From: a virus
Direction: 5' to 3' (one strand)
DNA length: 43,823 nucleotides
IMG/VR virus record: IMGVR_UViG_3300017743_000025
Location: 1-43,823 of that record
The translations under genes and the position numbers were made by a program. Position 1 is the stretch's first letter. Each line of letters starts with the position of its first letter. A model generated the notes under the pieces. That model was given only the letters and a program-made list of their open reading frames with translations. It was not told where the DNA came from and ran no database searches. Shown piece after piece: positions 6,376-39,591 of this stretch.

Positions 6376-6946
6376 GTTCGATAAAGAACGCTACGACAAG
6401 TTTGATGGCCAAGCCAAGGATGCTCTGGTAGACTACCTTGAGCAAGAGGGCCATCATATCAAGCGGGTAAAGGAAGACTACCTTGCTGATGTAGTATCAA
6501 CTAAGGATGGGGAGACCTTCTACAGTGAAGCAGAGATTAAAACCGCTTGGAAAGAGAGTTGGCCAGCGGACTGGAAAGACCTCCGCATTCCGGGGCGGAA
6601 GGCACGGCTCCTACAGAAGCACGCAACGATCACGTTCTTCGTATTTCGTAGTGACGTGCAAGAGTGCTGGATCGTCCGAGGGAAGCAACTGACCTTAGAC
6701 CAACTCAAAGAAGCCTATGGCCCTAAGATTAGCAAGGGCGAAATGTTCTTTCATATTCCTGTTAAAGAAGCGAAGCTAATTCGACATGACGAAAACGGTT
6801 GGACGGAAGTCATCCAAGAAGAACCATCAGCCTCAACTGCCAAAAAGACCACCACTGGAACCAAAGACGGAACGGCAAAAGCTGTACCTAAACGCACTAA
6901 AGACCAGTCCACAGACGATAGTGCTGGGACCAGCGGGGACGGGTAA
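6356..6946 (+). CDS. Putative PD-(D/E)XK nuclease with low-complexity tail
   Basis: In the 196-residue product the first 110 residues fit a PD-(D/E)XK nuclease: a helix (AKDALVDYLEQEG), ADVVSTKDG (Asp45), SEAEIKTAW (E60-x-K62), then a strand ATITFFVFRSD. The last 55 residues are Ser/Thr/Lys-rich (STAKKTTTGTKDG...) and are encoded by DNA that also encodes the start of PhoH in another frame. That tail looks like a by-product of overlap. The role could be host-DNA degradation or recombination. It starts 20 bases before the glutaredoxin stop. Confidence 0.68.
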   Translation: MTKNYAKFDKERYDKFDGQAKDALVDYLEQEGHHIKRVKEDYLADVVSTKDGETFYSEAEIKTAWKESWPADWKDLRIPGRKARLLQKHATITFFVFRSDVQECWIVRGKQLTLDQLKEAYGPKISKGEMFFHIPVKEAKLIRHDENGWTEVIQEEPSASTAKKTTTGTKDGTAKAVPKRTKDQSTDDSAGTSGDG

Positions 6947-7478
6947 GACCTACATAGCGGCCAGTTATGCCTCTCAGATGTATCTTGACAAGAGCATCGA
7001 AAAGATTGTCATCACTAGGCCGCATGTCTCTGTAGGCAAGGAAATAGGGTTCCTCCCCGGCAACGTACTAGAGAAGGCTACCCCTTGGGCTATGCCAACT
7101 CTAGACGTTCTGGAACAGTGGATGGGGAAGGGTGTTGTCGAAACCTCGTTAAAGAACGGGAATATCGAGATAGCCCCCCTAGCCCTGATGAGGGGTCGTA
7201 GCTTTGAGGATAGCTTTATCATTGTAGATGAGGCTCAAAACATCACCACCCATGAGATTAAGATGTTGTTGACTCGGGTGGCAGAAGGGTCTAAGATCGT
7301 TCTTAATGGTGACGTTCAGCAGTCTGATCTGAAGGACGCCAATGGTCTAGCAAAGATCGTTGAGCTAAGTCAGAGATACGCTGTGAACGTACCAGTTATT
7401 GAGTTTACGATTGACGACGTAGTTAGGAGTGAAGTATGCAAGCAGTGGATTTCGATATTCATGCAGGAAAAAATCTAG
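6786..7478 (+). CDS. phoH: PhoH-like P-loop ATPase
   Basis: The 230-residue product contains the PhoH hallmarks: KTERQKLYLNAL (residues 27-38), Walker A GPAGTGKT (48-55), VITRPHVSVGKEIGFLPG, Walker B FIIVDEAQN and NGDVQQSD. PhoH proteins are common auxiliary genes of marine phages; the cellular role is unsettled, with RNA-linked functions proposed. The N-terminal conserved part lies inside the 161-base overlap with the upstream nuclease, so the start cannot be moved downstream without losing it. The next gene overlaps its end by 43 bases. Confidence 0.88.
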   Translation: MTKTVGRKSSKKNHQPQLPKRPPLEPKTERQKLYLNALKTSPQTIVLGPAGTGKTYIAASYASQMYLDKSIEKIVITRPHVSVGKEIGFLPGNVLEKATPWAMPTLDVLEQWMGKGVVETSLKNGNIEIAPLALMRGRSFEDSFIIVDEAQNITTHEIKMLLTRVAEGSKIVLNGDVQQSDLKDANGLAKIVELSQRYAVNVPVIEFTIDDVVRSEVCKQWISIFMQEKI

Positions 7479-7723: not shown

Positions 7724-8103
7724 GGATCGTAGCCACACTTATTGGGTTGTTGTTTAGCACCGTAGCTGTAGCAGACCCAACAGAGAAAGCTATCGCAGAT
7801 ATTCGTGACATAGCTTCTATCATTGCAGCAGACTACAATAAGTGTGGTGTGGTCCAGATGGAAAAGGCCATCGACTACCTTGGGGCCATGTCCTCTATCG
7901 TCACCAGTGAGAACCCTGTAGTTTCTCCTAGTGACCTTGAGATGGCACAACTGATGTTCTTTGAAGAGGCATTCATCATAGCAGACAACTTTGCTAAGAC
8001 GGAAGGCTGCGACAGGCTGAACCTCTTGATTGATGCCTTTAGGTATGGTATGAACTACAACAAAGATGTGTACGAGTTCTACACTGAGTTAGGAGTGTTA
8101 TGA
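7720..8103 (+). CDS. Secreted or periplasmic hypothetical protein
   Basis: The 127-residue product has a typical Sec signal peptide (MRIVATLIGLLFSTVAVA-DP, likely cut after residue 18). The rest is a soluble, mainly helical acidic domain with two cysteines (C42 and C98) that could form a disulfide. No known family is recognised. Export suggests an effect on the host envelope, perhaps superinfection exclusion (inference). It is coupled by short overlaps to the genes on both sides. Confidence 0.7.
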   Translation: MRIVATLIGLLFSTVAVADPTEKAIADIRDIASIIAADYNKCGVVQMEKAIDYLGAMSSIVTSENPVVSPSDLEMAQLMFFEEAFIIADNFAKTEGCDRLNLLIDAFRYGMNYNKDVYEFYTELGVL

Positions 8104-8327
8104 AGGCATACAAGCTAAAGAAGTTTACTAAGCTCGTAGAAGATGCTGATATGGTGTATGGCACAGTAAGCCTTAACGCTGCTGTGAGGGTGCCTGTCAG
8201 GGTTCGTAAGAAGACCCTGCTGAAGTACCTATCAGAGATTACCCCCGGCACTTGGTCTAATGAGCTTGTGATATACGCAGAAACAGGGACCAGCCCAAAG
8301 GGACATAAAACCTTGAAGCTGGTCTAG
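8100..8327 (+). CDS. Small basic hypothetical protein
   Basis: The 75-residue product is Lys/Arg-rich, with alternating strand-like segments (GTVSLNAAVRVPVRVRKKTLLKYL), so a small beta-rich nucleic-acid-binding fold is possible but not shown. It starts in an ATGA overlap with the secreted protein. It is the last protein gene before the tmRNA, which begins within a few bases of its stop. Confidence 0.62.
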   Translation: MKAYKLKKFTKLVEDADMVYGTVSLNAAVRVPVRVRKKTLLKYLSEITPGTWSNELVIYAETGTSPKGHKTLKLV

Positions 8328-8330
8328 TCG

Positions 8331-8585
8331 TTCGCCGTTGATTTGTAGAAGACAGTAAGCAGGACCGGGGGGCAGTACCCCGCACCTCCACCAACTTCCT
8401 ATGGGGGTGAACTAGGATCGACTGGTGCTAGATGCTACAATGAGGCAACCGAGTGGTTCCGTAAGAACCAACCTTGATAAGTGCTAACAACTATGTTGCA
8501 CCTTCCCTCGCCGTAGCAGCGTAAGGGACGGGCCTCTGGGGGGCCTTGGAACAGAAGGGAGCTTCGGCTCCTACCCACTCTCCCA
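8331..8585 (+). ncRNA. ssrA: Circularly permuted (two-piece) tmRNA
   Basis: The acceptor piece comes first. A T-arm-like hairpin (8366-8370 with 8378-8382) is followed by CACCTCC (8383-8389) and an encoded A-CCA ending at 8393. After a 9-base spacer the coding piece begins with GGGGGTG (8403-8409), which pairs with CACCTCC over 7 bp with one G-U. Next comes GAACTAGGATCGACTGG, close to the tmRNA D-loop consensus (GGATTCGACGG). CTACAA (8435-8440) pairs with TTGTAG (8343-8348), and TGCT (8426-8429) with AGCA (8358-8361), as expected for helix P2. The tag frame, from GCT at 8483 to TAA at 8522-8524, reads ANNYVAPSLAVAA, with the hydrophobic end typical of ClpXP-directed tags. A GGAGC-TTCG-GCTCC hairpin (8558-8571) closes the region. 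Odd point: the T-loop reads GGCAGTA. Both outer ends are approximate. Confidence 0.88.
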
Positions 8586-8606
8586 TAAAAATAATAAGAG
8601 GAATAT

Positions 8607-9173
8607 ATGAAGAATCTCCTGATTGCCGTCTCTGTCATGGCTGCTGGTGCAGCAACCGCACAAGAGGCCCCGATGTCTGTAGGAAACACCTACGTCGAAT
8701 TGGGTACTAACTTTGAAGAAGAGACTACCTTGACTGTTGGTACAGGGGTAGGCTCTGGTGCTTTGTCAGCCTATGGCGAGCTTTCTGGCTCTACTGATGG
8801 CAACTTTCAAGCACGGGCTTACACAGACGTAGAGTTTGGCAAGTTTGTCGTCACTCCCGGCCTTAACTACGGTTGGGGAGAAGACGGTGGAGACCTTGTA
8901 GGCTTTGGTGATAACAACGAATGGGGCGATGTCACAGGTGACCTTGAGGTCGCACTCAAGCCGGGTATCATTGGCGGTGAGTACGTCTTTGCCAATACTG
9001 GTGTAGGGGTCGATGGCTGGTCTCTAGAGTGGGATGGTGGCGAAGTAGGCGCTGGCTACAAGCTAGACCTTGCTGAGAATGTCTACCTAGATGGTCGTGT
9101 AAGCTGGGGCTATGATGACCAGTTTGAAAGCACTGAGCGTCGTATCACTGCTGGATTCGGCCTTAAGTTCTAG
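8607..9173 (+). CDS. Outer-membrane beta-barrel-like protein with signal peptide
   Basis: The 188-residue product has a Sec signal peptide (MKNLLIAVSVMAAGAATAQ, cut before EAP). It then shows many short alternating strands rich in Gly, Tyr and Trp, and ends in F (GFGLKF), the C-terminal aromatic that outer-membrane barrels use for assembly. The length would suit an 8-strand barrel of the OmpW/Lom size class. A ribosome site AAGAGG precedes the ATG. It is the last rightward gene before the terminator. A role in modifying the infected cell surface, for instance blocking other phages as suggested for lambda Lom, is an inference. Confidence 0.78.
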   Translation: MKNLLIAVSVMAAGAATAQEAPMSVGNTYVELGTNFEEETTLTVGTGVGSGALSAYGELSGSTDGNFQARAYTDVEFGKFVVTPGLNYGWGEDGGDLVGFGDNNEWGDVTGDLEVALKPGIIGGEYVFANTGVGVDGWSLEWDGGEVGAGYKLDLAENVYLDGRVSWGYDDQFESTERRITAGFGLKF

Positions 9174-9198
9174 ATACTCCAAAATCTAGGCATAAAAG

Positions 9199-9230
9199 AA
9201 CCCCCGTAGGAATCAACCTGCGGGGGTTTT
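9199..9230. terminator. Bidirectional intrinsic terminator
   Basis: The inverted repeat CCCCCGTAGG (9201-9210) / CCTGCGGGGG (9217-9226), with one G-U pair and a 6-base loop, is flanked by TTTT on the plus side and by AAAAGAA upstream (T-rich on the minus strand). It lies exactly where the rightward early/middle operon and the leftward structural/lysis operon converge, so it probably ends both transcripts. Confidence 0.9.
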
Positions 9231-38845: not shown

Positions 38846-39019
38846 ATGGACGAGATTGAACACGTACTCAAAGACATCATCGACGATGCTATGGCAATGC
38901 TTGATGACTGTAAGAGCCGGACACACCCAAGCCCAGATGCTGCGGGTCGTATCCATATGTCTTCTAGTGAGCTTTGCGACTATGTAGACGGATTCCTAGA
39001 GAGCCGAGTGAATGTATGA
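38846..39019 (+). CDS. Small acidic hypothetical protein, first early gene
   Basis: The 57-residue acidic helical protein (MDEIEHVLKDIIDDAMAMLDD...) starts behind a strong AAGGAG site. Its stop overlaps the start of the sigma-like gene (ATGA), so they are coupled. It might bind or modulate the sigma-like protein or host polymerase, but only the context suggests this. Confidence 0.68.
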   Translation: MDEIEHVLKDIIDDAMAMLDDCKSRTHPSPDAAGRIHMSSSELCDYVDGFLESRVNV

Positions 39020-39591
39020 ACACCCAAGATAAGATGGACCTGTGCCGGAGGTTAGCTTCTAGCTTCCGGCGTTACGAGTTGTACGATGACCTTGTGCAGG
39101 AGGGGATGGTAGCCCTCCTAGAGGCCGATGCCCGTGGATATATAGCCCCCGGTGATTTTGTGATGGTAGCCCGGAAGCGGATGCAGGACTTTATATCCCT
39201 TCGCCAAGGCCCCCTGAGCATACCCCCCTCCTCTGAAACTAGGGAGAACGCTAAGGCTATCAGGAACGGCTCTGAAGCCCCGGTGACAGAGTACATGACC
39301 AGTGATACCTACGATAGCCTTAAAGTCGCTCTGGGAGCTTCTACAGCCCTTCTAGAGGGTGATGAGGTTTTGTACGAGGGTCACACAGAGGGTTATCTGT
39401 GGGTACAGCAAGTACAAGGCTTGATGAAGGATACCCTATCAGAGCGGGACTACGAGATATTCCTTTTAAAGTATGGCCCTGATGAGTGGTCTCTGGTGGA
39501 TATTGGCAAGAGGTACGACATTACCAAACAGAGAGTGTTGCAGATTGACAACAGGATCAGGGAAAAACTAAAAAGTGTAGTGGAATCGTAG
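39016..39591 (+). CDS. RNA polymerase sigma-factor-like protein
   Basis: The 191-residue product has a sigma70 region 2-like segment (residues 12-62; YDDLVQEGMVALLEADARG, then FVMVARKRMQDFI) and a linker PLSIPPSSE at the place of region 3.0. A region 4-like helix-turn-helix follows at 137-186 (LSERDYEIFLLKY, SLVDIGKRYDITKQRVLQID). The length is that of ECF or phage sigma factors. The start at 39016 uses the ATGA overlap; the open frame extends 14 codons upstream. The gene lies 10 bases from the first copy of the conserved promoter element, which it may recognise. Confidence 0.78.
   Translation: MNTQDKMDLCRRLASSFRRYELYDDLVQEGMVALLEADARGYIAPGDFVMVARKRMQDFISLRQGPLSIPPSSETRENAKAIRNGSEAPVTEYMTSDTYDSLKVALGASTALLEGDEVLYEGHTEGYLWVQQVQGLMKDTLSERDYEIFLLKYGPDEWSLVDIGKRYDITKQRVLQIDNRIREKLKSVVES

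Follow-up and report, generated by a model that had tools for sequence, protein, structure and literature searches.

A circularly permuted tmRNA gene with a conserved tag in a marine phage related to Roseobacter phage CRP-6

The stretch of DNA analysed here, referred to as the window, is a 43,823-base IMG/VR record. Its first and last 123 bases are identical, which suggests that the genome is complete. The leftward genes encode structural proteins (TerL, portal, major head protein, tape measure and minor tail protein), and facing this block are rightward replication and nucleotide genes (primase/helicase, exonuclease, ribonucleotide reductase, ThyX and PhoH). An ORF at 38974-39591 matched phage sigma factors weakly (PHROG 351, E 9e-9). 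No integrase was found among the ORFs scanned in the phage record, and the record contained no SmpB. Among cultured phages, Roseobacter phage CRP-6 (MK613348) is the closest, with identities of 80.6% for TerL and 62.7% for primase. CRP-6 infects the RCA roseobacter strain FZCC0042 (PMC6918029), and, to judge only from CRP-6, the window phage may find its host in the same group.

A tmRNA releases stalled ribosomes and labels incomplete proteins for degradation. ARAGORN returned one RNA gene in the 43,823-base window, a permuted tmRNA at 8300-8615 (+) with the tag ANNYVAPSLAVAA and a stop. In Rfam 15, the tmRNA_permuted model (RF04321) matched 8330-8524 over its full length at 97.3 bits (cut-off 47, E 7.8e-18), and the alpha_tmRNA model (RF01849) matched with 71.9 bits against a cut-off of 50. 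An earlier note, made from the sequence, had read a permuted tmRNA with a tag at this place and had named ARAGORN and covariance models as checks; ARAGORN and both Rfam models agree with it, and all of its coordinates hold (the 7-pair acceptor stem at 8383-8389/8403-8409, the CCA at 8391-8393 and the tag frame at 8483-8524). The order of the parts is permuted, with the acceptor piece located 5′ of the coding piece and the two joined by the acceptor stem and by P2-type pairing. The acceptor stem pairs CACCTCC with GGGGGTG and includes G3.U70, and it is followed by the discriminator A8390 and the encoded CCA, so that both the alanine identity pair and the CCA end are present. G3.U70 is the pair that is read by AlaRS. 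The gene starts at approximately 8329-8330, 1-2 bases past the TAG (8325-8327) that ends the upstream ORF. The features of the locus are:

6786..7478, + strand: PhoH-like gene, the query for collecting relatives
8100..8327, + strand: upstream ORF of 75 aa with no assigned function, ending 1-2 bases 5′ of the tmRNA
8330..8393, + strand: acceptor piece, including the T arm, the 3′ half of the acceptor stem, A8390 and CCA (RF04321 match from model position 1; relatives' alignment; pair counts)
8330-8336, 8343-8348 and 8354-8362, + strand: 5′ strands of the P2-type helices, within the acceptor piece
8366..8382, + strand: T arm, CGGGG-GGCAGTA-CCCCG, whose two outer pairs show both-side changes among relatives
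8394..8402, + strand: intervening segment (ITS) ACTTCCTAT, 9 bases, between the acceptor and coding pieces
8403..8579, + strand: coding piece, 3′ end approximate (model match; relatives' alignment; pair counts), made up of GGGGGTG (5′ half of the acceptor stem), the D-loop-like GGATCGACTGG, a helix at 8454-8470, the tag frame, a helix at 8531-8545 and a hairpin at 8557-8572
8483..8524, + strand: tag reading frame, codons 8483-8521 and TAA stop 8522-8524
8504..8528, + strand: tag helix UCCCU/AGGGA, inside and after the tag (relatives' alignment; pair counts)
8607..9173, + strand: downstream ORF of 188 aa with a signal-peptide-like start, conserved behind the tmRNA in relatives
9197..9230, + strand: terminator-like hairpin of 14 pairs that closes the rightward gene run

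The locus is a phage-encoded, circularly permuted tmRNA gene that is expected to yield two pieces (predicted sizes about 64 and 175 nt), with the ITS presumably excised by processing. A search immediately 5′ of the tmRNA returned no sigma-70-like promoter. Given this result, the gap of only 1-2 bases to the upstream ORF and the strong terminator-like hairpin, the tmRNA is probably cut from a long rightward transcript, and the same anatomy suggests that the upstream ORF and the tmRNA share one transcript. The 188-aa ORF had no Pfam or PHROG match; it resembles an outer-membrane barrel.

Relatives were collected through the PhoH-like gene. Of the clade contigs, 25 span the site, and every one of them has the acceptor piece, the coding piece and the tag in the same position; beyond these 25, eight contigs stop too early and one, L085, switches in the middle of the gene. 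The tmRNA is thus a constant feature of at least the clade of the window phage, and G3.U70 was present in 34/34 clade loci parsed. Distant PhoH relatives (approximately 54-63% identity) gave no match to the tmRNA gene of the clade. ARAGORN, run on distant PhoH relatives up to L141, returned tRNA genes in some and no tmRNA; it also missed several clade members, and a diverged tmRNA in these distant relatives is possible. CRP-6 also gave no tmRNA match, and since it lives without the gene, the wider group can dispense with it. In L085 (2003-2330), the acceptor piece of the clade leads into a coding piece with the tag ANDNFAIEDYRLAA and other downstream genes. This contig looks like two phages joined, by recombination or in assembly.

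A 55-pair structure was paired in 100% of cells on 11 distinct sequences. This percentage is partly built in, since the model and these same sequences guided the manual drawing of the structure and the rows share ancestry; this does not apply to the double changes. Both-side changes were observed at 6 pairs (17 cells), as compared with 0-1 pairs for slid partners, and the covariation score was 0.111 versus 0.006-0.028 for partners slid by 1-3 columns. The T stem, the helix at 8454-8470, the tag helix and the 3′ hairpin contain the double-change sites. The tag helix is the clearest case: the window has UCCCU/AGGGA, the L115 group UCUGU/ACAGA and L099 UCCGU/ACGGA, and the encoded residues shift only between Leu and Val. 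The spacer insert of L086 was shortened before alignment, which affected no counted pair. The minimum free energy of the gene is no evidence, as 110 of 200 shuffles fold equally well, and it was left out of the argument. With the covariance-model E-values, the 25/25 spanning relatives and the compensatory changes taken together, the gene is far beyond chance.

None of the 18 distinct alleles breaks the tag frame; 14 encode ANNYVAPSLAVAA, two ANNYVAPSVALAA and two ANNYVAPSVAIAA. Five codons vary silently and two swap aliphatic residues (Val/Leu/Ile), while positions 1-8 are fixed in 18/18 and the end is always [VLI]AA; by this pattern of codon changes, the frame and its stop are under clear purifying selection. 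The earlier note had called for a comparison with the host ssrA tag. The tags of Rhodobacteraceae (ANDNRAPVALAA, ANDNRAPVAVAA, ANDDYAPVAVAA and similar) follow the plan ANDNRAPVA[LV]AA, with AVAA ends in some, and the phage tag shares this plan and differs only in the middle (NNYV, S versus ANDNRAPV). A search of bacterial genomes for an ANNY-type tag start found none.

Two claims of that note did not survive. It had taken the T-loop GGCAGTA to be aberrant in a way that may affect how EF-Tu or AlaRS handles the RNA, and this idea was dropped: GGCAGTA is the usual alphaproteobacterial form, found in 90/116 alphaproteobacterial loci (a set dominated by SAR11 and retrieved with a pattern that avoids the T-loop) and in 41/104 other viral loci; the consensus of the alpha_tmRNA model reads GGCgGUA, and G3.U70 is intact. 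The T-loop was GGCGGTA in 26/26 Rhodobacteraceae loci parsed. The note had also called a permuted tmRNA unusual in such a phage. A survey of phage tmRNAs contradicts this, counting 53 two-piece cases (50 marine or aquatic) among 133 structures (PMC9004378), as do the matches of four viral-contig scans, whose listed matches are a lower bound; on these two sources, permuted tmRNAs are common in marine phages. What stands of its interpretation is a permuted gene of the two-piece type in a phage with no integrase among the scanned ORFs.

Foreign DNA in the relatives lies at the 5′ edge of the tmRNA or in the spacer between its pieces. The ITS spacer is 5, 7 or 9 nt in most relatives, and in L086, L097 and L098 it reaches approximately 93-150 nt with strong structure. 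All three inserts are much more stably folded than their shuffles (z -3.3 to -5.3, acceptor stem included). The long spacers are probably not unusual in length, as indicated by long-spacer scans of viral contigs, whose listed matches are a lower bound and were not each confirmed as full tmRNAs. The inserts, which lie between CCA and GGGGGTG, are unrelated to one another, and their complementary ends extend the acceptor stem as a long hairpin; in L098, the insert allows a Trp-rich reading frame of approximately 47 residues. The T arm of L086 has the T-loop TGCAAAT and the stem AGGGG/CCCCT, as if swapped in from another tmRNA. In L099, a hairpin is inserted immediately 3′ of the tag stop. In L084 (7606-7960), the 5′ edge is occupied by an HNH endonuclease gene that includes a resolvase-type helix-turn-helix; the gene is identical in L090 (3143-3497), and a similar ORF occurs in L104, L106 and L109. 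This HNH gene sits exactly between the upstream ORF and the tmRNA, resembling a homing gene beside its target. A manA RNA motif (RF01745, 60.8 bits), a candidate riboswitch, lies a few bases 5′ of the tmRNA in L114 (4337-4509) and L113 (G008:C1:2671-2843, -). A general link between manA RNA and tmRNA was rejected, as among 50 viral records the two were adjacent only in the L113/L114 lineage. The pattern of insertions outlines the two tmRNA pieces.

A permuted tmRNA scored over the cut-off in 281/296 Rhodobacteraceae genomes, and host machinery therefore fits this form of the gene. In the same set, no match to a permuted tmRNA came from 12/296 genomes, and several had two. The only DNA match in 395 Rhodobacteraceae genomes was a 38-base T-arm piece in one genome, which argues against recent capture from a sampled host, and a 551-base region had no match in a DNA similarity search of phage records. 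In a tree of 216 core segments, which are short and join the two pieces, the clade groups with other viral tmRNAs, and the branches are long; outer nodes have weak support (0.47), and the nearest tip is L085, the contig that looks like two phages joined.

It is very probable that this CRP-6-related marine phage lineage carries its own working permuted ssrA, with extra ribosome rescue during infection as its likeliest use. The gene would probably be transcribed with the rightward run of early and replication genes, and processing of the precursor would leave an acceptor piece and a coding piece still joined by base pairing. Since the phage has no SmpB of its own, the SmpB, AlaRS, EF-Tu and proteases of the host must serve the tmRNA: host AlaRS would charge it with alanine, and host SmpB and EF-Tu would bring it to stalled ribosomes. 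There ANNYVAPSLAVAA would be added, and the tagged peptides would end in NNYVAPSLAVAA. Ends of the form [VLI]AA are the usual signal for proteases. The benefit would most likely be added ribosome rescue as broken mRNAs build up and host transcription stops.

The earlier note had offered two roles, and sustained trans-translation appears to fit better than retagging. If the phage used ANNYVAPSLAVAA to route proteins to another adaptor or protease, or to mark host or phage proteins unlike the host tag, the distinctive middle of the tag and its eight fixed first positions would be accounted for; however, the C-terminal signal is ordinary and is shared with some host tags (AVAA), and the first tag residues vary widely across bacteria and phages, so retagging is unlikely. 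Retargeting by the fixed ANNYVAPS segment combined with control by the manA-type candidate riboswitch in L113/L114 would make for metabolite-controlled viral ribosome rescue, which we consider distinctly improbable. Mycobacteriophage DS6A has a tagless tmRNA-like RNA (PMC11915505), and a decoy that blocks trans-translation by competing with host tmRNA for SmpB or ribosomes would likewise retain the tRNA-like domain. Such a decoy needs no tag, whereas the frame and stop here are clearly selected and, in contrast to the DS6A type, the tag coding region is conserved; a decoy is thus very unlikely. Phages acquire pieces of ssrA on excision (discussed in PMC9004378), and this, like the lack of the gene in CRP-6, would suit a passenger, either a functionless ssrA taken from a host or the remains of an attachment site. 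Yet the gene is full length with compensatory changes, shows no decay in 25/25 spanning contigs, and belongs to a phage with no integrase among the scanned ORFs; together with the lack of a close match in the 395 genomes save the 38-base piece, this leaves a passenger a very slight chance.

In summary, the tmRNA gene, as judged by sequence comparison, is real, conserved and probably functional, and it is one more case of a known type. In this compact marine phage lineage, a phage-borne ribosome-rescue RNA is maintained under clear selection, whereas CRP-6, the cultured relative, has none. With this contrast and a cultivable host group, the gain of a phage from a tmRNA becomes directly testable. 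Taken alone, the gene is one further entry among known phage tmRNAs, well supported and ordinary; a 2025 tmRNA database holds 79 phage sequences (PMC11915505).

CRP-6 has a gene layout similar to that of the window phage but no tmRNA match. Compared with the alphaproteobacterial permuted tmRNAs (RF01849, RF04321), the phage gene has the same order of acceptor, spacer and coding parts, the T-loop GGC[AG]GTA, G3.U70, CCA and the [VLI]AA end. It differs in its spacer (5-9 nt in most of the clade versus 12-26 nt in the Rhodobacteraceae loci parsed), in its model score (97 bits versus approximately 145-158 bits for the listed Rhodobacteraceae genes) and in having its own tag. The Methylophilales phage Melnitz is also a marine phage with a complete permuted ssrA; unlike the 44-kb window phage of the CRP-6 kind, it is a myophage with a glutamine riboswitch beside the gene (PMC9004378). 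Sphingobium phage Lacusarx and Bacteriophage DSS3_MAL1, which are alphaproteobacterial phages, have an annotated ssrA whose T-arm segment is 91% identical over 32 bases, and Phaeobacter phage MD18 also gave a match, at a place with no annotated feature. All three have larger genomes of 130-150 kb, and in Lacusarx (PMC5648845) and DSS3_MAL1 the ssrA is accompanied by tRNA genes.
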